A stretch of DNA of 64,000 nt from Cytophagales bacterium (lineage in GTDB: Bacteria; Bacteroidota; Bacteroidia; Cytophagales; Flammeovirgaceae), in NCBI GenBank assembly GCA_025056215.1, contig JANWWC010000001.1, positions 62,001 through 126,000 of the forward strand. The letters run 5' to 3'. The notes below the pieces were generated by a model. That model ran no database searches. It had not been told where the DNA came from and was given only the letters and a program-made list of their open reading frames with translations. How positions within the stretch are numbered: the stretch's first letter is position 1; the number at the start of each line of letters is the position of its first letter. Made by a program: the position numbers and the translations under genes. Shown here one piece after another: positions 1-41,312 of the stretch.

Positions 1-2624
1 CTTATGTCTCCCGAAAACTGAAAAGTTTGAAACTCGTTTCTTACAAATTCTCCTGTATTGGGGTTCAGTGTTTGAGTAAAGTTCCATGTATAGTTTAGGC
101 TAAGCGACCAAGGCACCGAAAAATCTACGTAAGCGCCTGGATTATATTTTATATCTTGTAGAATTTGTTCTTCCTCGGGTGTAAGGGGGCGTCCATATTT
201 TTTTTCTAAGGCTTTTTTCTTGTCTTTTTTTGCTTGTGGTGATGCAAAACTTGTTCCTACAGCGATATTAGCATTCATAAGCTTTCCTAAGCGCGCAAGG
301 CCTTGTGCATGATTCCAAGCATAAACATCTTGCCTTCGTTGCGTAGGCAATTTAAAACCAGGTATTAAATATTCTTCTGAAAATCCTCCGAGGTTGTTAG
401 GAACGATCTGACGATAATAGCCAGGCCGTTTTACTTCATCAGAATATAAATAAGGGTCAAGAGTACCATTAAAAGCGATATTAATTTTTTTAAGAATTAC
501 TGTTCGAGCATTTAAACTAATATTAGATAGACGGAAAGAGTCGGCGATTGCATTATAAGAAGCAGTAGCGGAAAGATTATCTAAAATAGGAGCTTTGACA
601 TACTCTTGGGCTGTGTCCTTTTTAGAACGCACTTTCATTTCTATTTGATTGCTCAAATTCATATTGAAAGCGCTACTTCTACCACTTCCCGGACCTTGTC
701 CTACAAATCTTGGAAAAGGACTTGTTTTGCCTGTAGGATCAATTTGAGTGCGCTGATAAAAATTATATGCGTCTGTAGAGAAATCGGGGCGCCAGCTGTA
801 GCCAACTGTAGGAGTAATCATATGTCGAATAGCGCTTATGTATTGGCTTTTTAGATAGTAAAAAACATACAGACGAGTAGTAGCGTTCGCTCCGAGATTG
901 AAACTATAAGTTTGATAAGGAGAAAATATTGTATCGCGTCGCACGCCATAAAACAAAACACTCGTATCTTGTAAGTTTCCGTTGGGAAGTCGTTTTTGTG
1001 TAGGAATAGTTGTTTGCAAGTAAGTGTATCGGAACTGATATTGATAAAAATTTTGTTGAAAATTAAAATTAGGAGTAATCGTGAAATATTTAGCTAATGT
1101 CATATTGGTGGAAATGGGAACTTGATGCGAAGCGCTATACTGAGCCGCTTTGGCATAAGTGAAAAGATTAGTAAAAAGGTCTAACGTGTCGAATCGAAGA
1201 GGTTGCCGCGCGCGATTGATAGAAGCATTCAGTGTATCGAGTGGTAAGTTATTGCCAAAGTTTTGTTGCAATTGTTGAATTGTTTGAAGTTCTCGATTAG
1301 AAAGAAAGTTGCCTGCACTTGGTTGTGAAAGCGTATTTCTGATTTCTCCTTGAGCGTTAAATGAATAAGCTAAGTTAGTTTGTGTGAGAACATTTTTGCG
1401 AGGGCTAAGCTTTTTGAACGGAAAAATGCGGTTCATGTTCACTCCAATTGAAGGAGAGAGAGTAGCAAATTTAGTTTGAATGTTCTGATTCTGACGTAAA
1501 TTAGCGGACATTGAAAAAGGAGTTCCACTAAATGTTTTGGAATAAGAAATGCTTGAGCTGAATGCTGGTGCTATCACATTGTTGATATTGAAAGAATTTA
1601 GTCGGTTAAAGTTGGAAGAACCTGCATTTACGCTTGCCGAAAATCTGCCAGTGCCCTTGCTTTGGGGGTTATGAGACCATCGAATCCAATAATCTTTAAA
1701 GATGGTTTTTTCTAAGTTAGGTTCTTCCCGTTCGTTGTAGTTGTAGGAAAAATTAAACCTTCCATCAAAAGCATATTTTTTTCTGTATTCTACATCAGTG
1801 CTAAAGCCATAACCACCGCGCGAATAAATTTGTCCTAACATTTTTAATCCGATATATTCGTTTACAGGAATGAATATACCTCCATCTCTCAAAAAGAAGC
1901 CTCTATCGGTGGTTTCTCCATAAGTCGGAAAAATGAGACCTCCTTGCCGTTTCTTAGGAATAGGAAACATTCCTAATGGAAAGCCTATAGGAGTAGGAAC
2001 GCGATTGAGTTCGATATTAAAAGGCCCAGAAACGACGTACTTTCCTGGCTTTGTTTTCATCTTCTTTGTGACGATAGCGTAATGAGGCTCTGCCAAATTG
2101 CAAGTAGTGTATTTTCCGTTTCGAAGCCATAGCTCTTGTGTGGGGCTTCTTTTAACGCGCTCCCCAATCAGGTAACCTTCGCCTTGTTGAGTAATAATGT
2201 GATGAATGACTCCCTTTCTTGTTTTGAAGTTATAGATCATGCTATCGGAGGTAAAAGTTTGATCTTTATCTTTGAAGACAGGTACTTGTTTGAGCTTTCC
2301 TGTGCTATCTGGTACGCCTTTTGCTTGCACAGTATTTTCGGCGTAGTAAATGATAATTTGTGAAGCCTCAAGAGACATTTCTCCATAGTTCACTTTTGAA
2401 CCTCCAAACATTGTCATGCGCTTTTCTCTCATATCGAAACGCATAGAGTCTTTGGCAGAGTAAACAATAGTGGTTTCTATGTCTCTTTTAACAGGTTTTG
2501 GGAGTTTAAGAGTATCTGGTTTTTGTGCATAAAGAATGCGACAAAACACTAATGCGCTCATAAATAGCACAAAAGCCAAAAAAAAATTAGTTAGATAATA
2601 GCAAACGCTTTTAAGTTTTAACAT
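1..2624 (-). CDS. lptD: LptD-like LPS assembly outer membrane protein (3' part missing)
   Basis: The reading frame is open from an ATG at 2624 down to the window edge (874 codons seen), so the C-terminus lies outside. The N-terminus is hydrophobic and ends in YAQ, fitting a signal peptide. An OstA/LptA-like part follows (about residues 45-190, with GGSKVNYGEMSLEA and TFTSDSMIYNFKTRKG). The long beta-barrel part contains GLIFPTYGE and RGFFLRDGG, which I associate with the Bacteroidota LptD family, and repeated alternating strands ending in QTFQFSGDI. LptD inserts lipopolysaccharide into the outer leaflet of the outer membrane. The gene starts 42 nt after the GGGP synthase gene and has its own promoter at 2657-2686. 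SprA-like barrels are an alternative for the barrel but not for the OstA part. Confidence 0.85.
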   Translation of the reverse strand, partial: MLKLKSVCYYLTNFFLAFVLFMSALVFCRILYAQKPDTLKLPKPVKRDIETTIVYSAKDSMRFDMREKRMTMFGGSKVNYGEMSLEASQIIIYYAENTVQAKGVPDSTGKLKQVPVFKDKDQTFTSDSMIYNFKTRKGVIHHIITQQGEGYLIGERVKRSPTQELWLRNGKYTTCNLAEPHYAIVTKKMKTKPGKYVVSGPFNIELNRVPTPIGFPLGMFPIPKKRQGGLIFPTYGETTDRGFFLRDGGIFIPVNEYIGLKMLGQIYSRGGYGFSTDVEYRKKYAFDGRFNFSYNYNEREEPNLEKTIFKDYWIRWSHNPQSKGTGRFSASVNAGSSNFNRLNSFNINNVIAPAFSSSISYSKTFSGTPFSMSANLRQNQNIQTKFATLSPSIGVNMNRIFPFKKLSPRKNVLTQTNLAYSFNAQGEIRNTLSQPSAGNFLSNRELQTIQQLQQNFGNNLPLDTLNASINRARQPLRFDTLDLFTNLFTYAKAAQYSASHQVPISTNMTLAKYFTITPNFNFQQNFYQYQFRYTYLQTTIPTQKRLPNGNLQDTSVLFYGVRRDTIFSPYQTYSFNLGANATTRLYVFYYLKSQYISAIRHMITPTVGYSWRPDFSTDAYNFYQRTQIDPTGKTSPFPRFVGQGPGSGRSSAFNMNLSNQIEMKVRSKKDTAQEYVKAPILDNLSATASYNAIADSFRLSNISLNARTVILKKINIAFNGTLDPYLYSDEVKRPGYYRQIVPNNLGGFSEEYLIPGFKLPTQRRQDVYAWNHAQGLARLGKLMNANIAVGTSFASPQAKKDKKKALEKKYGRPLTPEEEQILQDIKYNPGAYVDFSVPWSLSLNYTWNFTQTLNPNTGEFVRNEFQTFQFSGDI

Positions 2625-30773: not shown

Positions 30774-33512
30774 ATGTCGTCATCAAGATTTATTCCTAAG
30801 CATGATTTGCCCCCTCTCAAACTCAGCGGATTGGAACCCTTAATTATTACTCCTGAATCTAGCTTTGTAAATATTGGAGAAAGGTGCAACGTGACAGGCT
30901 CTAAAAAATTTCTTCGTCTTATTAAAGAAGAAAACTACTCGGAAGCTTTAGCTATTGCGCGCGAACAGGTCGAAAACGGCGCTATGATACTCGACGTAAA
31001 CATGGACGAAGGTATGATAGATGGTAAAGCTGCTATGGTTCGTTTTTTAAATTTGTTAGCAGCAGAGCCTGATATTGCACGTGTTCCTATCATGATAGAT
31101 TCATCAAAATGGGAAATTATCGAAGCGGGCCTGAAATGTGTACAAGGAAAGTGCATAGTAAATTCGATTAGTTTGAAGGGAGGAGAAGAAGAATTTATTC
31201 GGCAGGCTAAAACAATCAGAAAGTTTGGAGCGGCTGTTGTAGTGATGGCTTTTGATGAAATCGGACAAGCGGATACGTTCGAAAGAAGAATTCAAATTTG
31301 TGAACGCGCTTATAAAATCTTAGTGAATAAAGTAAAATTTCCTCCGCAAGACATTATTTTTGACCCTAATATTTTTCCTGTAGCGACTGGCATGGAGGAA
31401 CATCGCAAAAATGCCATCGATTTTTTTCGGGCTACACGATGGATACGCGAAAATTTGCCAGGTGCTCATGTTTTGGGGGGTGTAAGCAATGTCTCTTTTT
31501 CGTTTCGCGGAAACGACCGCGTACGAGAAGCCATGCATGCTGCTTTTTTATACCATGCTATTAACGAAGGAATGGATATGGGAATCGTTAACCCCCAGCA
31601 ATTAGAAGTATACGACGAGATTCCTAAAGATTTATTAGAACATATTGAAGATGTACTCTTAGACAGACGAGATGACGCTACCGAGCGCCTTATGGCATTT
31701 GCAGAAACGCTCAAAGGCGCATCAAAAGAGAAGAATAGCGCTGAAGAGCTATGGAGAAGCAATACAGTAGAAAAACGTTTGGAATATGCTCTTGTAAAAG
31801 GTATTGATGCTTATATCGAGCAAGATGTAGAAGAAGCGAGGCGAAAATACTCGCGCCCGCTGCACGTGATTGAAGGTCCTTTAATGGATGGCATGAATGT
31901 GGTAGGAGATTTGTTTGGCGCTGGAAAAATGTTTTTGCCTCAGGTGGTGAAATCGGCGCGCGTTATGAAAAAAGCGGTTGCTTACCTTCTTCCTTTTATG
32001 GAAGCCGAAAAAGAAGCTCTTAAAGCTAAAGGTGTGTTCAACGAATCTGAAAAGCCTCCTAAAATTTTGTTGGCTACGGTCAAAGGAGATGTTCACGATA
32101 TCGGAAAAAATATTGTAGGAGTAGTGTTAGCTTGTAATAATTTTGAAATTATCGATTTAGGCGTAATGGTTCCAAAAGAAAAAATTCTCGATGAAGCTCA
32201 AAAACATCAAGTAGATATTATTGGGCTTTCTGGACTTATTACGCCTTCTCTTGATGAAATGGTAGAGGTTGCTAAAGAAATGGAGCGAAGATGTATGAAA
32301 ATTCCTCTTCTTATAGGGGGAGCTACTACATCGAGAGCACACACAGCTGTAAAGATTGATCCTGTTTATTCGGGTGCTGTAGTTCATGTGCTTGATGCTT
32401 CTAAGTCTGTGCCAGTAGCTACTGTTTTTACGAGCAAGGACCCCAAAGTAAAGCAAGAAGCTCGCAATGAAATTAAAGCTGAATACGAACGTTTCAGACA
32501 AGACTATTACAAACGGCAAGGAACTAAAAACTATATTTCTCTTGCAGAAGCGCGCGCTAATAAATTCAAAATTGATTGGTATAGCCAAAAGATTAAAAAG
32601 CCTAGCTTTTTAGGAATCAAGGTATTCGACAATTATTCTTTAGAAGAATTAGTCAACTATTTTGATTGGACTCCGTTTTTTCAATCATGGGAGTTGGCAG
32701 GAAAGTTTCCTGATATTCTTTGCGACAAAGTGGTAGGAGAGGAGGCTACGCGCCTTTACCAAGACGCTCAAAAAATGCTTCAAATGATTGTAGAAAACAA
32801 GCTCTTTTGCGCAAAGGCTGTAATAGGCTTCTTCCCTGCTAACACCATTCGAGACGACGATATTGCTATTTATGCCGATGATGAGCATCGAACAGAAATT
32901 GTTTATGTCTTGCATCATCTTCGCCAGCAGATCAAAAAAGCAAGTGGGAGTCCTAATTATTGTTTAGCTGATTTTATTGCTCCTGCTGAAACAGGTATCA
33001 AAGACTATATTGGTGCTTTCGTAGTAACAGGGGGAATAGGTGTAGAAGAACTAGCGCGCAAATACGAAAAAGAGCTCGACGATTACCATAGCATCATGGT
33101 CAAAGCTCTTGGCGACCGTTTTGCAGAAGCTTTTGCAGAACGCATGCATGAGCGCGTCCGCAAAGAATTTTGGGGTTATGCTCCTGATGAAAATTTTACT
33201 AACGAAGAGTTAATCGCTGAAAAATACATAGGCATTCGACCTGCGCCTGGCTATCCAGCTTGCCCCGATCATTTAGAAAAAGCTACCCTCTTTCGAATGC
33301 TACAAGCTACCGAACATACAACGGTTTACCTAACAGAGAATTACGCCATGTATCCGGCTTCCTCCGTGAGCGGTTGGTATTTTGCAAATGAAAATGCACG
33401 CTACTTCGGGCTAGGCAATATTGCACAAGACCAAGTAAAAGACTATGCAGAGCGAATTGGTAGAACTGTCGAAGAAACAGAAAAATGGCTGAGCAGCATT
33501 CTAGCCTATTGA
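30774..33512 (+). CDS. metH: Methionine synthase (cobalamin-dependent) lacking the homocysteine-binding domain
   Basis: This 912-residue protein (from the ATG at 30774) holds the last three of the four MetH modules. The pterin domain starts at [16 protein letters not shown]; the helical cap and B12 domain follow ([19 protein letters not shown], cobalamin His; [14 protein letters not shown]); the reactivation domain ends with [15 protein letters not shown], which binds S-adenosylmethionine. The N-terminal zinc-dependent homocysteine S-methyltransferase domain (about 330 residues) is missing, as in Bacteroidota where it is a separate protein. The partner is not in this window. Its stop overlaps the convergent TolC-like gene by 7 nt. 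Confidence 0.96.
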
Positions 33513-34921
33513 TAGCCCCCTCCCAGTGCGCGATAAATGCCTACCTTAGAAAACAATAAGCGCCGCTTTGCTTCGGCTAATTCTAGTTTGGCGTTAAGAG
33601 CTTCTCGTTGAGTAAGCAGAACTTCCATGTAATCTGCACGTGCAAAGCGATATAAGTTACTGGCTATATCAATAGATTCGTTTAAAATTTCTACTTCTTT
33701 TTGTTTGGTTTTATAACTATCTTGAAAATTTTGGATAGAAGCTAACTGGTTCAAAACATCTACAAATGCGTTCAGAATAGTTTGTTGGTAGTGATAGAGC
33801 GCCTGAAGTTGGCGCGCATTTGCTTGTAGATAGACGGCTTTAATAGCATTTCGGTTGATGAGTGGGGATAAAATTTCTCCTCCAATTCTGTAGAGAATAG
33901 AGTGAGGCTCAAAGATGTATTTAGGGCTAAATGCCTGAAAGCCAGCACTTGCAACAAGGCGAAGAGATGGATAAAAGTTTGCCTTTGCAATTTCTACATC
34001 TAATTTTGACGCTTTTAGTTCTAACTCTGCGCGTTTAATATCTGGTCTGTTAGAAAGAAGTTGAGAAGGAAGACCTATTTCTATTGAATCAAGTGATAGT
34101 TCAAAAAATGATTTTGAATTTCTTTCGATAGGCTGCGGAAAGCGTCCTAACAAAAAATTGATTCGATTTTCTGTTTGAACAATTTGCTGTTTGATCTCAA
34201 AAGCTAAGTTTTTAGTGTTAAAAACTTGTGCTTCAAATCGATTTACCGCTAATTGTGTTACTTTAGCATTTTCTTTTTCTTGTTTTATGATTTGATAAGC
34301 ATTTTCTTGAATAGTAGCATTTTGTTGAATGATTTCTAGTATGTTATCCAATGCTAATAGTTCATAATACAGCGATGCAATTTCAGCTACCAAATTAGTT
34401 ACTAAAAAGTTTCTCCCTTCTTGGGAAGCCATGTACCGCATAACTGCCGATTTTCGGGCGTTTCGTAATCTTTTCCAAATGTCTATTTCCCAAGAAGCAA
34501 CCGTTCCGACCATCAAATCCGAAAACGGAGTAGGGAACGGTTTGTTAGGCAAAATATTAAGTTGATTTTCTAAAGCTCCGTTGCGGGTATACTTTCCTAC
34601 TTTATCCAACTCTGCATTTGAGCGAAGTTCTACAAAAGGAAGGTATTCTCCCTTACGAGCTTTTATCTCACTTTTTTGGATCTCAATTTCTTGTAGAAAA
34701 ATTTTTAACTCTTGGTTTTGCTCTAATGCGGTTTCGATGAGGTTTTGCAAGTATTTATCGCCGAAATAATCTTTCCATGAAATTAATCCTATATTTTTAG
34801 AAGAAGTATCTTGTTGAAATTGAGGAGGTAATTCTGAAAAAGATGAAGTTTGTGTAAAAAGTTGTGGTACGCATGAAGATAGCACCGCAACTTTCACGAA
34901 AAGCATAAAAATGTTTTTCAT
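33506..34921 (-). CDS. TolC/NodT-family outer membrane efflux lipoprotein
   Basis: This 471-residue protein has a lipoprotein-like signal (lipobox LSSC, Cys about residue 17) and two repeats of the outer membrane efflux fold. Long amphipathic helices ([40 protein letters not shown]) are typical of NodT/OprM channels. It is the exit duct of the RND system encoded upstream; its ATG overlaps the stop of the pump gene by 4 nt. Confidence 0.93.
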
Positions 34922-37900
34922 TTTTTGTGATGTTTGAAAAATGTTTTGACCTTATGGAGAAAAGATTCTTTTTCAATTGCTTGATGTACAATTTCTTCGG
35001 AGAGTGGCTCTAAGGATTCGTCGCGAATAAGCTTTCTACCTTCATTAAGAGTTCCAAAGATATAATACAAGCCAGGCACGATAATGAGTCCAAAAATAGT
35101 TCCGGTGAGCATACCTCCTAAAGCCGAAGCGCCGATGGTTCGATTCCCAATAGCAGCAGCGCCAGTAGCGCGTACTAATGGAATCAAGCCTACAACAAAA
35201 GCAAATGAAGTCATCAGAATAGGGCGAAATCGCATTTTTGCTCCTTCAATTGCTGCTTGAAGAACCGGAAGCCCTTGTTGATTTCGCTGAACAGCGTATT
35301 CTACGATAAGAACCGCATTTTTTCCTAATAGCCCTACAAGCATAATCAATCCTATTTGAGCATAAATATCATTAGCCAAGCCCATTATTTTGAGCAAAAA
35401 GAAAGAACCAAAAATACCCGGAGGGAGAGAAATCAAAACTGCCCACGGAAGAATAAAACTCTCATACTGAGATGCCAACACTAAATACACAAATATTAAT
35501 ACTATTGCAAAAATGTAAATGCTTTCGTTGCCTCTTTTTACTTCGTCGTAAGAAAGCCCTTCCCAAGCAATATCATATCCTTGAGGAAGAGTCTGCTTAG
35601 CAACTTCTTGGATAGCCTTAATTGCTTGGCTAGTAGTATATCCTTCAGAAGGTACTCCTCGAATGAAAGATGCTGTATATAAATTAAATCGCGTGATTTC
35701 ATTAGGTCCTTGTGTTTTTCTAAGCGTCATAAACGAGGAGTAAGGAACCATTTCCCCTTTTTCATTTTTTACAAATAGTTTTAGTAAGTCTGATGGCAAG
35801 CGGCGGTACTCAGGCGATGCTTGGGTGTAGACTTTAAAAAAGTTGTTAAAACGCGTAAATCCTTGTTCGTAAGTGCTTCCAATGAGAATATTTAAGTTTT
35901 CCATTGCTTTGCCGATAGAAACTCCTTTTTGCATAGCTGTCTGGTTATCAATTAAAATCTCGTATTGAGGATAATTAGCAGCGTAAAAAGTAAATAATCC
36001 GCTCAATTCTTTTCTTGCTTTTAATGCTTCCATGAATTGCGTATTAACTTTGTCGAACTCTTGATAATCTACAGTAGGATTTTTATCGAGTAGCACGAGT
36101 GAAAATCCTCCCGATGAACCGTATCCAGGCACAGCAGGTGGTTCAAAAAATTCTATGATTGCTCCAAAGTCTTTAGTTTTTTCTTCTAATTCTTCTATAA
36201 TTTCTTTGACAGATTGCTCTCTTTGATGCCAAGGCTTTAAATTAATCAGACATGTTCCTGCATTAGAGCCTCGCCCTTCTGTAAGAATTTCGTATCCTGC
36301 TAATGAAGTTACAGATTGAATACTTTCAATTTCTTTAGCTATTCTTTGAAGTTGTTGAGATACTTCGTTTGTACGTTCTAAAGTTGAGCCAGGCGGTGTC
36401 TGAATGATGGCATAAATCATCGCTTGGTCTTCGCTTGGAATAAAGCCTGAAGGTAAAAATTCATTTACAACATAAATGAGCACAAGAAAAATCAATAAAA
36501 TGATTCCTGTAAGCCAACGTCGATGCGTAATTTTTTCCAAAAGTTGTGTATATTTTTTTGTCAAACTTTCAAAATGATGATTGAAACTTATCAAAAAACG
36601 GTTGATAAGAGTTTTTTTAGCAAACCTTTCATGTTTATGTTTTAAAATCATAGCAGAAAGTACAGGTGTGAGCGAGAGTGCAATAATTCCTGAAAGCACA
36701 ATAGCACTTGCCATCGTAATAGAAAACTGCCTATAAAACACTCCTACAGGACCTGGCATAAAGGTAATCGGTACAAATACTGAAACCATTACAAGTGTAA
36801 TAGCAATAACAGCTCCGCTAATTTCGGAAAGTACTTTTTTAACTGCTTTTAATGGTGGTAAATGTTCTGATTCCATTTTTTCATAAACTGCTTCTACTAC
36901 TACGATTGCATCATCTACTACAATTCCAATAGCGAGTACCAAAGCAAAAAGAGTTATCAAATTAATGGTAAGGCCAAAACTTTTCATGAAAATAAATGCA
37001 CCGACAAGTGAAATAGGAACTGCAATGATAGGAATAAGAGTAGAACGAAAATCTCCTAAAAACACAAAGACCACAAGAGCAACGAGAATAAATGCCTCAA
37101 CAAGCGTTTGCAATACTTTTTGGATAGACGCATCTACAAACTTGGAAACATCGTAGCTAATTTCGTAATCCATGCCAGGTGGAAAATCTTTTTTCAGCTC
37201 AGCGAGTTTAGCTTTTGTTTGTGCGATGACTTCTTGGGCGTTGCTGCCTACGTTTTGTTTGAGAACAATAGAAGCAGAGGGATATCCGTCCTTGTTAGAA
37301 TAGATGTTGACAAATTCGCTTCCCAGTTCTACATAGCCTATATCTTTTAGCTTCAGCACTTCTCCCTCGGGAGTTGCTCGGATAATAATGTCTTCATATT
37401 CTTCTGGTTTATTGAATCTGCCTCGATAGACAAGTACATATTCAAGGGATTGCGGTGTTTTTCCTGAGCTTTGACCAAGTCTTCCAGGTCTTCCAATAAT
37501 ACTTTGCTCTCCTATAGCTTCCATCACTTCTTCTGTAGAAACATTGTAGGCACGCATCCTATCGGGATTGAGCCAAATTCGCATGGCGTATTGTCGGCTT
37601 CCTAAAATCTGGGCTCTTCCCATGCCTTTAATGCGTTGGATTTCTGGAAGAATTTTTACATAAGCGTAGTTAAATAAAAATTTTTCGTCGGCATTAGGGT
37701 CTGTGCTATACAGATTTACATACATCAACATACTAGGCTGAATCGGCGTGATAATAACACCTTCTCTTTGTACTAATGGAGGAAGATTGCTCATCACTTG
37801 GTCTACTCTTGTTTTGATATTGACGACTGCAGCATTAGGGTCTGTTCCAGGCTCAAAAACTACTTGAATGGTGGCTTCTCCAGCACTGGTTGCACTCGAT

Positions 37901-38136
37901 GTCATATAGAGCATTCCTGGAACACCATTGATAGCTCTTTCTAACGGAATGAGCGTAGACTGGACTAACACATCTGCACTTGCTCCTGGATAGTCGATAA
38001 ATATGGATACGCGAGGGGGTGCAATCTCAGGAAACTGAGAAACAGGCAAATTTTCCATTGCCAACAGTCCTAGAAAAATAATTCCTACTGACAGACTGAT
38101 GGCTAAAACTGGTCTGTGAACAAAATTAGTTGTCAT
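34918..38136 (-). CDS. RND efflux transporter permease (HAE1/AcrB type)
   Basis: This 1072-residue inner membrane pump has the twelve-segment RND layout with two large periplasmic loops. Proton-relay residues are seen in ALVLAIGIVVDDAIVVVEAV (paired Asp of TM4), and GAVIAITLVMVSVFVPITFM is typical of the hydrophobe/drug (HAE1) group. It lacks the heavy-metal CusA signatures. It works with the adaptor encoded 6 nt upstream and the channel that overlaps it. Substrate cannot be told from sequence. Confidence 0.96.
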   Translation of the reverse strand: MTTNFVHRPVLAISLSVGIIFLGLLAMENLPVSQFPEIAPPRVSIFIDYPGASADVLVQSTLIPLERAINGVPGMLYMTSSATSAGEATIQVVFEPGTDPNAAVVNIKTRVDQVMSNLPPLVQREGVIITPIQPSMLMYVNLYSTDPNADEKFLFNYAYVKILPEIQRIKGMGRAQILGSRQYAMRIWLNPDRMRAYNVSTEEVMEAIGEQSIIGRPGRLGQSSGKTPQSLEYVLVYRGRFNKPEEYEDIIIRATPEGEVLKLKDIGYVELGSEFVNIYSNKDGYPSASIVLKQNVGSNAQEVIAQTKAKLAELKKDFPPGMDYEISYDVSKFVDASIQKVLQTLVEAFILVALVVFVFLGDFRSTLIPIIAVPISLVGAFIFMKSFGLTINLITLFALVLAIGIVVDDAIVVVEAVYEKMESEHLPPLKAVKKVLSEISGAVIAITLVMVSVFVPITFMPGPVGVFYRQFSITMASAIVLSGIIALSLTPVLSAMILKHKHERFAKKTLINRFLISFNHHFESLTKKYTQLLEKITHRRWLTGIILLIFLVLIYVVNEFLPSGFIPSEDQAMIYAIIQTPPGSTLERTNEVSQQLQRIAKEIESIQSVTSLAGYEILTEGRGSNAGTCLINLKPWHQREQSVKEIIEELEEKTKDFGAIIEFFEPPAVPGYGSSGGFSLVLLDKNPTVDYQEFDKVNTQFMEALKARKELSGLFTFYAANYPQYEILIDNQTAMQKGVSIGKAMENLNILIGSTYEQGFTRFNNFFKVYTQASPEYRRLPSDLLKLFVKNEKGEMVPYSSFMTLRKTQGPNEITRFNLYTASFIRGVPSEGYTTSQAIKAIQEVAKQTLPQGYDIAWEGLSYDEVKRGNESIYIFAIVLIFVYLVLASQYESFILPWAVLISLPPGIFGSFFLLKIMGLANDIYAQIGLIMLVGLLGKNAVLIVEYAVQRNQQGLPVLQAAIEGAKMRFRPILMTSFAFVVGLIPLVRATGAAAIGNRTIGASALGGMLTGTIFGLIIVPGLYYIFGTLNEGRKLIRDESLEPLSEEIVHQAIEKESFLHKVKTFFKHHKK

Positions 38137-38142
38137 AATTTG

Positions 38143-39225
38143 TTATTCGGCATGGAGTTGTCGTAGTTCTTGTAATATTTCGGGCAGACGTACTGTATAA
38201 TGCATTACCTTATCTCCTTTTTTTACTTTGCGCAATCCTTCTAAAAGAATTCGGTCTTCCTCAGTGATTCCTTTCGAAACCACAAATAAGTGTGGAAGTT
38301 CGTTGCTTATAGAAATTTCTCGCATGTGAACGACATCATCTTTATCTACTACAAATACGTAATGCTTTCCTAAAATTTCGAAAGTAGCCTTTTGAGGTAT
38401 GAGCAAAGCTTTTTTTAGGCTGACAGGCATCAGAATATTACCAGTTTCTCCATGTCGTAAGATTCCCTTAGGGTTTGGGAATGTCGCTCGAAAAGCAATA
38501 TTGCCTGTTTCATTATCAAAATCAGCTTCAATCGTTTCAACTACTCCGTCATAATCAAACATTTTTCTATTTGCCATCTGAAGTTTGACTTTTAGCAGGC
38601 TATCTTTTTTGTAATTAGTAACAAAATCGAGATATTCAACTTCCGGCACATTAAAATACACCCATACTTTGCTGTTATCTGAAAGTGTAGTAAGCAGTTC
38701 CCCTTCGTCTAGTAAGCTTCCTAAACGAGCATGGAATCTGCCTACAATCCCAGAAAAAGGTGCGCGTATTTCAGTAAAACTCAAATGAGTGCGCGCTAAG
38801 GCTAGCTCTGCTTTGGCTTTTTCCAATTTAGCTTTGGCTAAAGCTAATTCATTAGGAGAAACAATATTTTTTTCTGCTAATTGCTGAGTATTTAAATATT
38901 CTACTTCTACGAACTTAAGCTCAGCTTCTGCTTTTTGTACTTCTGCCTGATATACTAAAGGCATAATCTTAAATAAAACCTGTCCTTTTTGAACAAGTTG
39001 TCCTTCATCTACATAGATGTTTTCTAAATAACCTTTTTCTAGGGCGCGTACTTCTATGTGCTGAAAGGAATGAATCTGACAAACGTATTCTTTAAAGAAG
39101 GACGTATCTTGACGAGCAGGATAAATAACAGGATACGCCACTGTTTCTTGGTGGAGCGAGTGCGAGTCGCAGCCTATGCAAAATATTACGCACATCAAAC
39201 TCCCTAGTAGAATGGGTATTTTCAT
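38143..39225 (-). CDS. RND periplasmic adaptor (membrane fusion protein)
   Basis: This 360-residue lipoprotein (lipobox IFCIGC, residue 19) has the lipoyl/barrel-sandwich pattern EVRALEKGYLENIYVDEGQLVQKGQVLF, a coiled-coil hairpin (about 90-145, AKAKLEKAKAELALARTHL) and the second lipoyl half IRAPFSGIVGRFHARLGSLL. It bridges pump and outer membrane channel. It is the second gene of the operon, 6 nt before the pump gene. Confidence 0.94.
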   Translation of the reverse strand: MKIPILLGSLMCVIFCIGCDSHSLHQETVAYPVIYPARQDTSFFKEYVCQIHSFQHIEVRALEKGYLENIYVDEGQLVQKGQVLFKIMPLVYQAEVQKAEAELKFVEVEYLNTQQLAEKNIVSPNELALAKAKLEKAKAELALARTHLSFTEIRAPFSGIVGRFHARLGSLLDEGELLTTLSDNSKVWVYFNVPEVEYLDFVTNYKKDSLLKVKLQMANRKMFDYDGVVETIEADFDNETGNIAFRATFPNPKGILRHGETGNILMPVSLKKALLIPQKATFEILGKHYVFVVDKDDVVHMREISISNELPHLFVVSKGITEEDRILLEGLRKVKKGDKVMHYTVRLPEILQELRQLHAE

Positions 39226-39330
39226 GATTTTAATTTTTTAAAAATAAAATTGTAAGGGAAGAGCAAAATTTTTTGCGTAGTTTGTTAAAAGGATATAGCC
39301 GTTATTTTTGTAAATCACCTAAAGGAAAGG

Positions 39331-39726
39331 CTATACCTCGTAAAAAATGAGAGAGTGGAAGGCAATGTAGCGAGGGATATTCCCAAAAATATCAATCAAA
39401 CAAGGATAAGAAAAAGAATTACATATAGTATCAGCAGCGAATTTCTTTAGTGCTGAAAGGGCAATTACCTTGATACAGTACGTTTTTATAGGCTCAGGTG
39501 GGGAGGAAAGCTTCAAAACTTTGTTTTTGAAAATGACCTTATAAAGCTCACTTGCATCGTCATCTTCACAGACTTTACATTCTTCTTGCTTAGCTTCTCT
39601 TGTTTCTTTTACTTCTTTCAAGCAAAATGAACTTGCAACAGGATTCGCAGTTAGTAAACTTGCTATTACCAACGCGAAAAGAAAACAAGTTCCTTTTGTT
39701 AAATATTGAAAAGACTTTTTTAGCAT
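39331..39726 (-). CDS. Unknown exported Cys-rich protein opening the RND operon
   Basis: I place the start at the second in-frame ATG (39726, 131 residues), because a complete promoter at 39743-39773 would start transcription at or after the first ATG. It has a signal peptide (MLKKSFQYLTKGTCFLFALV, then IASLLTANPVASS). The mature part is short, with an ECKVCEDDD motif and Cys in YCIKV, DTICNS and YPCL: six Cys after the signal. No known domain is recognised. It lies about 105 nt upstream of the adaptor gene on the same strand, so it is likely the first gene of the operon. A sensor, chaperone or metal-binding role is speculation. Confidence 0.7.
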   Translation of the reverse strand: MLKKSFQYLTKGTCFLFALVIASLLTANPVASSFCLKEVKETREAKQEECKVCEDDDASELYKVIFKNKVLKLSSPPEPIKTYCIKVIALSALKKFAADTICNSFSYPCLIDIFGNIPRYIAFHSLIFYEV

Positions 39727-39742
39727 AGAATTATCCAACATG

Positions 39743-39773
39743 CAAATATAGCTATATTTCAGTAGTTAACAAA
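39743..39773 (-). promoter_or_regulatory. Consensus promoter for the RND operon
   Basis: On the minus strand TTTG (39770-39773), 19 nt, then TATATTTG (39743-39750): full match to the Bacteroidota form. Its -7 box ends 1 nt before the ATG at 39741, which argues for translation from 39726. Confidence 0.75.
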
Positions 39774-39872
39774 ATTTACTTCTAAGAATTTTGCATATTT
39801 TAAATTTATTAGACTTTTTCTTAGAAAATGCGTCATTATTTTTTATTTTGCATAGTATAAAACAACTAAGCT

Positions 39873-41312
39873 ATGGAACATAAACCACTCAGCAGCAAAG
39901 AAAAAGCATTGCAAATCAATTTGGATGAATTTATTTATGGTTCCTTTGCTGAAATTGGAGCAGGGCAAGATACGGCTGCAATTTTTTTTAAAGCAGGCGG
40001 AGCTTCTGGGACGGTAGCGAAAACAATGTCGGCTTATGACATGGCATTTAGCGATGCTATCTACGGGCCAGAAGAAAACAAGCGTTACGTCTGTAAGCCT
40101 CGTTTATTAAAGATGCTCGAAAAAGAATACTCTCTCCTCCCTAAACGATTGCCTCATCGCGCTGATAGAACTTGCTTTTTTGCTTTTGCGAATACCGTAG
40201 AGGCGCTTAATTTCAAACGAACTAATGAAGGTCATGGTTGGGTAGGGGTTCGCTTCCAAACAAGACCTAACGGACCCGTAAATGACTGTATTATTCATGT
40301 TAAAATGAAAGACAACGATCCTGTTTGGCAACAAAATGCTCTGGGAATTGTAGGAGTTAACCTTATTTACGCTTGCTTTTATTATCGAAATGATATTGAA
40401 GTATTTATGAAGTCACTTCTTGATGAAGTTACGATTCATCGCATTGAAATTGATTACTTCGAATTGAGAGGAGATGACTTTAACCATATTGATAACCGAT
40501 TGCTAAGCCTGAAGCTCGTCAGGTTAGGACTTACTAATATCACCATGTTTGACCCCGACGGAAACGTCCTTCATCCAGCGGATGCTTTGTATAAAAAAAA
40601 TGTCATGATTGTGCGCGGTCGCTTTCGCCCCGTAACACTCGTAAACATGGATATGATTCAAAAAGGAAAAGAACAATTTTACAAAGACCCAGAAGTAGAT
40701 AAAACAAACACAGTTATTATTTGTGAGCTTACTCTTGACCAACTTGCTGCAGCAGGCAATCAAGACGGAAACATCGATGAGCGAGATTTTTTATACAGAG
40801 CTGATATCCTTTGTTCATTAGGGCAGACTGTTATGATTTCTAATGTGAAACATTATTATCGCCTTGTTCCTTTTCTTTCCAAACTTACGCGAGGGAAAAA
40901 AATCGGCATTGTGCTAGGAGTGTACAATCTTTTATCTTTGTTTGATGAAAAAAATTATGATGGATTAAAAGGAGGTATCTTAGAATCTTTCGGAACTCTT
41001 TTTAGCAATAATGTAAAAATGTTTGTTTATCCTTCTTATAAGCCAGGAACAAAAGAAATCGTCAATGTTTATACTCTCGAACTTCCTCCTACGCTCATAG
41101 ATCTACTAGAATATTTAGTAGTGAATAATAAAGTAGAAGATATCAAGGATTACGTAGAGGAACATCTCGATATTATTTCAGACAATGTGCTAGCTCAAAT
41201 CAAAAAAGGAGAAGAAGGTTGGGAAAAACTTGTCCCTGAAGGAGTAGCTTCTATTATCAAATCGCGATGCTTGTTCGACTACCCTTGTAAAGTAGAGCCT
41301 CAGATAGACTAA
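39873..41312 (+). CDS. Conserved protein of unknown function (GAGQ/GGASGT family)
   Basis: This 479-residue cytosolic protein begins with SSKEKALQINLDEFIYGSFA, EIGAGQDTAAIFFKAGGASG and TVAKTMSAYDMAF. Further blocks are GHGWVGVRFQTRPNGP and RGRFRPVTLVNMDM, then a C-terminal half with GKKIGIVLGVYNLLSLFDE. I recognise it as a wide bacterial family that databases label inconsistently, including as a TonB receptor or a nucleotidyl transferase. No signal peptide, barrel or HxGH nucleotidyltransferase motif is visible, so I do not accept those labels. It stands alone upstream of mnmG. Confidence 0.75.
   Translation: MEHKPLSSKEKALQINLDEFIYGSFAEIGAGQDTAAIFFKAGGASGTVAKTMSAYDMAFSDAIYGPEENKRYVCKPRLLKMLEKEYSLLPKRLPHRADRTCFFAFANTVEALNFKRTNEGHGWVGVRFQTRPNGPVNDCIIHVKMKDNDPVWQQNALGIVGVNLIYACFYYRNDIEVFMKSLLDEVTIHRIEIDYFELRGDDFNHIDNRLLSLKLVRLGLTNITMFDPDGNVLHPADALYKKNVMIVRGRFRPVTLVNMDMIQKGKEQFYKDPEVDKTNTVIICELTLDQLAAAGNQDGNIDERDFLYRADILCSLGQTVMISNVKHYYRLVPFLSKLTRGKKIGIVLGVYNLLSLFDEKNYDGLKGGILESFGTLFSNNVKMFVYPSYKPGTKEIVNVYTLELPPTLIDLLEYLVVNNKVEDIKDYVEEHLDIISDNVLAQIKKGEEGWEKLVPEGVASIIKSRCLFDYPCKVEPQID

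Follow-up and report, generated by a model that had tools for sequence, protein, structure and literature searches.

A small predicted exported protein heads an RND efflux operon

The window analyzed here is a stretch of 64,000 nucleotides from a Cytophagales bacterium, and its minus strand carries a small open reading frame (ORF), termed the leader herein, followed by the three genes of an RND efflux operon (Table 1). Pfam matches gave the same-strand order leader, adaptor, pump, and TolC-like gene that a preliminary description of this DNA had proposed. The gap between the leader stop codon and the adaptor start is 105 nucleotides (nt) in the window. A 479-amino-acid protein without a Pfam match at an E value of ≤1 is encoded divergently from the leader, on the plus strand (positions 39873 to 41312).

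The leader ORF comprises 136 amino acids (39331 to 39741) if translation starts at the first ATG (position 39741) and 131 amino acids if it starts at the second (position 39726); because only one base lies between the −7 element of the promoter and the first ATG, the second is the likelier start. The promoter, TTTG-N19-TATATTTG, read from position 39773 to 39743, is the single full match on the minus strand within positions 39221 to 39900, and we take it to be of the Bacteroidota type. The N-terminal hydrophobic segment of the leader passes the Kyte-Doolittle hydropathy cut; six cysteines lie beyond it, including those of an ECKVC sequence, and one further cysteine lies within it. An acidic patch is centered close to residue 57 of the 136, some 79 residues ahead of the C terminus, and the protein ends in NIPRYIAFHSLIFYEV, with no di-proline (PP) in its last 15 residues. 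Neither Pfam nor NCBIfam contains a family that matches the window leader at an E value of ≤1. The complete promoter, the 131-residue ORF with six cysteines in its mature part, and the lack of a recognizable domain had all been reported in the preliminary description, whose range of 39331 to 39773 corresponds to the ORF plus the promoter, and each agrees with our analysis.

Table 1. Features of the leader locus and the operon in the window
Feature	Position	Strand	Basis or remark
Promoter TTTG-N19-TATATTTG	39743..39773	minus	exact sequence match
Predicted exported leader ORF, 131 aa (136 aa if first ATG)	39331..39726	minus	hydrophobic N-terminal segment by Kyte-Doolittle
Acidic patch region of leader	39544..39615	minus	densest 14 residues, 7 acidic
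Conserved C-terminal motif PRYIAFHSLIFYEV, abutting stop codon	39334..39375	minus	comparison of relatives
Predicted RNA stem-loop GAGGUAUAGCC / GGCUAUAUCC	39291..39339	minus	5' arm spans last leader codons and stop codon
RND adaptor (membrane fusion lipoprotein), first gene after leader	38143..39225	minus	HlyD_D23, E 4.9e-20
RND pump (AcrB/AcrD/AcrF family)	34918..38136	minus	ACR_tran, E 5.9e-289
TolC-like outer membrane efflux protein	33506..34921	minus	OEP, E 1.5e-43

Relatives of the window leader share its C-terminal end

Comparison of the window protein with 58 related genomes (its own included) gave only weak matches elsewhere. The best three relatives (L002, L003, and L004) are ORFs of 135 to 142 amino acids located directly upstream of an RND adaptor gene, and they and the window leader end alike, with PxYIAx[HQ]xLIFYE-x-stop. 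The conserved part of the leader is the extreme C terminus, PRYIAFHSLIFYE-x-stop, with strong conservation limited to the last dozen residues.

Searching 390 genomes of the order with a profile yielded 11 members of this FYE type in 10 genomes; 16 further matches, with E values between 0.005 and 0.1, were excluded on the match table alone, which showed partial cover and long or broken frames. The preliminary description had proposed checking whether homologues of the small gene co-occur with RND genes, and 8 of the 11 members do head an RND adaptor gene. The remaining three (in genomes G070, G155, and G163) head a dabA gene, and G070 has both kinds. At its DabA locus (L048), DabA and a DabB-like gene were confirmed by Pfam. 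The FYE-led DabA-DabB operon of G070 (L048:8405-10627) is followed by a gene for a 740-amino-acid protein, presumably, by its look, a SulP-type transporter. A known domain for the leader was sought and rejected, the other FYE members giving only scattered weak Pfam or NCBIfam matches, each in one member. Four leaders of other types likewise gave no Pfam match at an E value of ≤0.1, and their two weak NCBIfam matches fell far below the cut-off.

At the DNA level, a loose motif pattern found 93 places in the 390 genomes and recovered the same 11 FYE members, with a broadly similar number of places for the reversed-pattern control; among the other 82 places, 41 were translated and none ends a small exported ORF, the nearest being a 56-codon frame (L065). 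A scan of one genome per species over 84,980 species, a set that may leave out the window's own genome, used a pattern that does not include the stop codon and returned 11 matching stretches. Nine of these end one or two codons before a stop codon, and the other two are chance matches. The nine belong to Thermoflexibacter ruber, Raineya orbicola, a Raineya sp., and metagenome-assembled genomes (MAGs) labelled Bernardetiaceae, Cytophagales, Bacteroidetes, Bacteroidia, and, in two cases, Saprospiraceae.

Two Saprospiraceae loci (L110:6735-7073 and L111:234-272) have the FYE-type ends PLYLLFHAFIFYEKN and PLYLLFHNFLFYEAA. The L111 ORF, which has lost its N terminus to the contig end, is followed closely by a gene for a DegP/HtrA-like protease (Trypsin_2 and PDZ by Pfam), and the L110 ORF lies about 350 nt upstream of a gene for a short exported protein; judging from these two loci, leaders of this kind may head further envelope genes. 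Among 120 relatives of a Saprospiraceae genome, one ambiguous case was found beyond L110 and L111, a 68-codon frame ending in YLTFYSFLFYEVAQ (L122).

Leader ORFs precede orthologous adaptor genes and DabA operons

A small exported ORF also lies immediately before many orthologous adaptor genes (54 to 71% identity) where the FYE end is missing; these ORFs reach the stop codon with different sequences, such as ...RYLVFQTFRI, ...RWHLVIQVFRI, and ...LPLYILFHSWKTHLI. With a leader defined as an ORF of 85 to 200 amino acids with a hydrophobic N terminus and a stop codon 30 to 420 nt upstream of the adaptor gene (20 to 420 nt in the fresh tests described below), a leader was found before 46 of 86 testable orthologous adaptor genes of the order (L169 was too short to test), and an antisense control of about 1.2 kb contained a passing ORF anywhere in 7 of 86 loci. 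By eye, 7 of the 46 ORFs were judged not to be of this kind (L160, L161, L168, L180, L202, L204, and L207); the counts of 46/86, 21/25, and 18/20 given here were taken before any such removal. As 40 of the 86 adaptor genes have no passing ORF and 7 of the 46 ORFs are doubtful, the leader is not obligatory. The build common to the class is a hydrophobic N terminus, an acidic patch, and a mostly Pro-free end at the stop codon.

The ends could be summarized by a motif core, [YFHW][LI]x[FLIYV][HQRE]x[FLWIVM] within the last 20 residues, which is present in 29 of the 46 leaders compared with 1.4 for shuffled ends (at most 7 in 2,000 shuffles) and with 0 of 431 internal windows. Since the core had been read off the same data, it was frozen and then tested on fresh loci of the class. 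Leaders were present at 21 of 25 loci in the first set (one of them, L259, without upstream DNA) and at 18 of 20 in the second, 39 of 45 together, and the frozen core fitted 7 of 21 and 4 of 18 leaders (0.43 and 0.40 expected from shuffles, respectively). Thus, although both fresh tests were positive, the core misses most fresh leaders and under-describes the class.

Of the 30 DabA loci, 12 have a leader, and 10 of these leaders are new; PLYILFHSLRVHLA and IPLYVLFHSWKDYLI are examples of their ends. The definition itself gives 13 of 30 with L291, whose passing ORF lacks the end and is probably unrelated, and L269 has no leader. Three new DabA leaders fit the frozen core (0.17 expected from shuffles). 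The leader loci in all these counts are related by descent.

Leaders of paralogous RND operons end in di-proline

A second, paralogous group of adaptors (group 2) shows 40 to 47% identity. Three of its loci were followed downstream; an RND pump gene is present in two (L336 and L337), and no pump ORF is listed for the third (L335). PP occurs in the last 15 residues of 18 of the 19 leaders found at 23 group 2 loci and of all 16 leaders at 20 fresh loci (6.4 expected from shuffles), giving 34 of 35 leaders at 43 loci. At one orthologous (group 1) RND operon (L252), where most relatives are Pro-free, the leader ends in YRGPPPLG and contains a CruR-like RGPP. Leaders of one build therefore use different ends at the same operon position.

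Selection, acidic patch, and cysteine content

Pooled pN/pS ratios from ten sets of related leaders, the window's own set excluded, are 0.45 for the first 45 codons, 0.53 for the middle, and 0.11 for the last 15 codons, and pS is not reduced at the end (0.46, 0.48, and 0.55, respectively). This substitution pattern indicates that the leader ORF is translated and that its end is constrained as protein. The acidic stretch is denser than in shuffled mature parts (6.7 versus 4.6 acidic residues per 14 residues; P = 4e-21) in 119 leaders, a set that leaves out the seven ORFs rejected by eye as well as L302, L307, L311, L312, and L242. The median distance from the patch to the end is 60 residues (interquartile range, 54 to 65), with 79 in the FYE type. 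In the Pro-free leaders of other types, the position of the patch is less variable relative to the end than relative to the signal (Levene P = 0.006), a difference that the same comparison did not show in the FYE and PP types.

Selection across the whole ORF, with pN/pS ratios of 0.45 to 0.53 outside the end, would also be expected of a working protein, and the leader could be a small periplasmic or membrane-anchored pump accessory whose conserved C terminus serves as a binding interface; the common acidic patch and the fact that the leader travels with pump genes fit such a role. However, the same build heads DabA operons, which need no RND accessory, and a PP-type end takes its place on paralogous RND operons. 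The body of the protein is, moreover, highly variable, and the conserved stretch abuts the stop codon. AlphaFold2 gave no confident fold for the leader (mean pLDDT of 58), which is weak evidence, as only 11 sequences were available. We consider an accessory function unlikely; a nascent-chain leader that acts in cis fits the evidence better than a protein at work in the periplasm does.

The six mature cysteines of the window leader, with ECKVC among them, also raise the idea of a thiol or metal sensor or handler. The upstream ORFs CutF and CruR are reported to be copper sensors, CruR through a CXXC motif (PMC9973294, PMC9426467). Drug pumps and metal pumps are not told apart by ACR_tran, the Pfam family of the pump. 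Against this, the number of cysteines ranges from 0 to 6 among leaders at orthologous operons, the window leader having the most; the alignment of the 11 FYE members has no invariant Cys or His, and one FYE relative (L130) has no cysteine after residue 20. Cysteine-based metal sensing was therefore rejected as a shared trait, the cysteines of the window leader being incidental, and a sensor or handler of this kind in the window seems to us very improbable. The thiol-metal lead of the preliminary description thus found no support. Of the two roles that it had suggested, handling of the pump substrate is not supported either, given the variable cysteines, and regulation of the pump gains indirect support from the homologues that head RND adaptor genes.

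Promoter position and RNA folding

In 22 of 58 loci, a TTG-N18-23-TAnnTTTG sequence is found upstream of the leader or within its first 60 nt, and in none of the 58 is it found in the gap between leader and adaptor gene. The −7 element alone occurs before the leader in 33 of these loci versus in the gap in 2 (mean lengths, 260 and 200 nt). Both the promoter motif set and the gap-folding set exclude the seven ORFs rejected by eye.

Folding of the gap was analyzed for stretches of up to 330 nt. The mean z scores are −2.98 for FYE loci (n = 8), −1.35 for other group 1 loci (n = 27), and −1.80 for PP loci (n = 15) versus −0.77 for leader coding controls (n = 50), so that the gap folds moderately more strongly than the coding control. 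In the window, the whole 168-nt stretch with the predicted stem-loop has a z score of −2.0, and 8 of 200 shuffles fold as well. In a Bacteroidia MAG (L114), a perfect 12-bp inverted repeat, CTGAAAAACAAA / TTTGTTTTTCAG (positions 707 to 718 and 788 to 799, minus strand), spans the region from just after the leader stop codon to a point some 35 nt short of the adaptor start.

In 113 leaders, whose loci are not independent, base pairing between the RNA of the leader end and the start region downstream is better than that with mismatched genomes (P = 1.1e-5) and than that of slid windows (P = 8e-4). The set left out the seven by-eye rejects plus L302, L307, L311, L312, and L242, and adaptor starts were assigned by a lipoprotein-start rule, which changed seven of them relative to the nearest upstream ATG. 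The leader end ranks first among all windows in 20 of the 113 leaders (3.4 expected), and 1 of these 20 is among the 29 PP leaders. By group, pairing is significant in the other group 1 leaders and in DabA leaders, borderline in the fresh class set (P = 0.042 and 0.071), and not significant in FYE (n = 8) or PP (n = 29) leaders, the latter showing no trend at all. A base-pair-probability test with nearest-ATG starts, some of which are misassigned, gave a P value of only 0.029 when applied to the ribosome footprint and of 0.25 when applied to the start region. Strong pairing is seen in L143, L137, L203, L253, and L288; in Raineya orbicola (L143), the partners of the LIFYEI-stop codons are the nucleotides immediately ahead of the adaptor ATG. 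In the window, the pairing of leader end and adaptor start is ordinary (−6.3 kcal). With pairing strong in some loci and absent in the window, we do not claim a general sequestration of the downstream start.

The structured gap in several loci and the stem over the stop codon in the window would suit regulation by RNA alone, an attenuator or riboswitch through which the ORF is merely read. Codon use could be counted in the same direction: 13 of 14 members encode the tyrosine of the FYE sequence by TAC (P = 2e-6 versus local codon use; P = 9e-4 versus Tyr-Glu dicodons). As the members are related, and as the background was sparse for some of them and lacking for one, we take this bias as a hint of an added RNA-level constraint. 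A consensus scan detected no intrinsic terminator. The strong amino acid constraint at the C terminus, accompanied by free synonymous change, argues against a purely RNA-based control, as does Rfam, which returned one chance match far below its gathering score; we give this explanation little credence.

Proposed function as a nascent-chain leader

Promoter position, operon order, the conserved C terminus, and protein-level selection, together with the recurrence of leaders on orthologous RND and DabA operons and their PP-ended counterpart on paralogous RND operons, provide computational support for regulation by the leader peptide. We think it probable that the window ORF regulates in cis, as a leader whose nascent chain serves as the sensor, with the ribosome pausing at its C terminus, and leaders of this kind are likely translation-arrest sensors of a new, Pro-free variety. 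According to this model, the leader would be transcribed first, from its own promoter and along with the pump genes, and the hydrophobic N terminus would target the chain to the Sec translocon before the C terminus has left the ribosome. The chain end (PRYIAFHSLIFYE-x-stop) would make the ribosome pause at the stop codon or immediately ahead of it, except when export pulls the chain out. The paused ribosome would occupy RNA that otherwise folds, in the window presumably the stem over the leader's own stop codon and in some relatives a duplex of leader end and start region, and expression of adaptor, pump, and TolC-like protein would rise.

RND pumps and DabAB are driven by the proton-motive force. 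A wider and more speculative proposal, which we regard as doubtful, is that a large class of Pro-free, stop-adjacent arrest leaders in Bacteroidia reads the proton-motive force or export fitness and tunes RND pumps and DabAB, with exchangeable ends (FYE, FRI, HSWK, and PP) and an acidic patch about 55 to 80 residues before the end. The patch would sit roughly at the membrane crossing when the ribosome pauses, so that the membrane potential could pull on it. The whole basis of this proposal is the acidic-patch data and statements in a review, which reports that the proton-motive force pulls acidic nascent chains enough to release the SecM arrest and adds that simple pulling leaves some data unexplained (PMC6028853).

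If nascent-chain control of these operons is real, it would govern carbon uptake by DabAB as well as RND efflux across much of the class Bacteroidia, and it would be invisible to searches restricted to di-proline ends or to sec/yidC operons. It would also add non-proline, stop-adjacent arrest motifs for structural work on the ribosome, and the exchange of ends between orthologous and paralogous operons, on leaders of similar build, could serve as a natural experiment.

Comparison with known systems

Pro-free leaders that head RND or DabA operons in Bacteroidota are not described in the literature covered, which leaves aside most subscription papers, all bioRxiv preprints, and supplements. Precedents for control by a nascent chain are CutF, CruR, and the arrest peptides of the Sec/YidC pathways.

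Arrest peptides of the Sec/YidC pathways (SecM, VemP, MifM, ApcA, ApdA, ApdP, uA_NSP-stop, uDF_NAP-stop, and uC_KYxIW) have varied C termini, some of which lack a RAPP-like motif or abut the stop codon, and include Bacteroidota "-stop" types (PMC10987492). They share with the leaders a predicted N-terminal signal or transmembrane segment, a spacer of >30 residues, a conserved C-terminal sequence, and the upstream position; however, they were sought upstream of secA, secDF, and yidC, whereas the leaders described here head RND and DabA operons and carry another motif. Small, often exported proteins with RAPP or RGPP motifs head diverse genes beyond the Sec/YidC pathways (PMC12992588); small size and a C-terminal motif are common to both, but the window ORF contains neither RAPP nor RGPP.

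CruR is encoded by an upstream ORF whose C-terminal motif arrests translation, so that the operon is controlled after transcription start, with copper sensing by CXXC (PMC9426467), and its arrest has been reported in vitro (PMC12992588). The window ORF differs in having no RAPP-like end and no DUF2946 domain (no Pfam match at an E value of ≤1), and its CXXC is not conserved.

CutF is a small exported protein of an upstream ORF; its cotranslational export controls the downstream gene in response to copper, and its Pro-rich end alone is not a strong stall (PMC9973294). The CutF-like set was collected by PP within the last 15 residues, along with a length of <150 amino acids, a signal peptide, and a same-strand gene within 1,000 nt downstream; its members show Cys/His metal sites and often lie with RND parts (PMC9973294). 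The window ORF shares the length (131 or 136 amino acids), the upstream position, a conserved C-terminal end, the nearby downstream gene, and the RND parts, and its N-terminal segment passes a hydropathy cut, but it has no PP in the last 15 residues and no conserved Cys/His metal site. The group 2 leaders found here, in contrast, have the PP end and may already be among the Bacteroidota members of the CutF-like set (PMC9973294).
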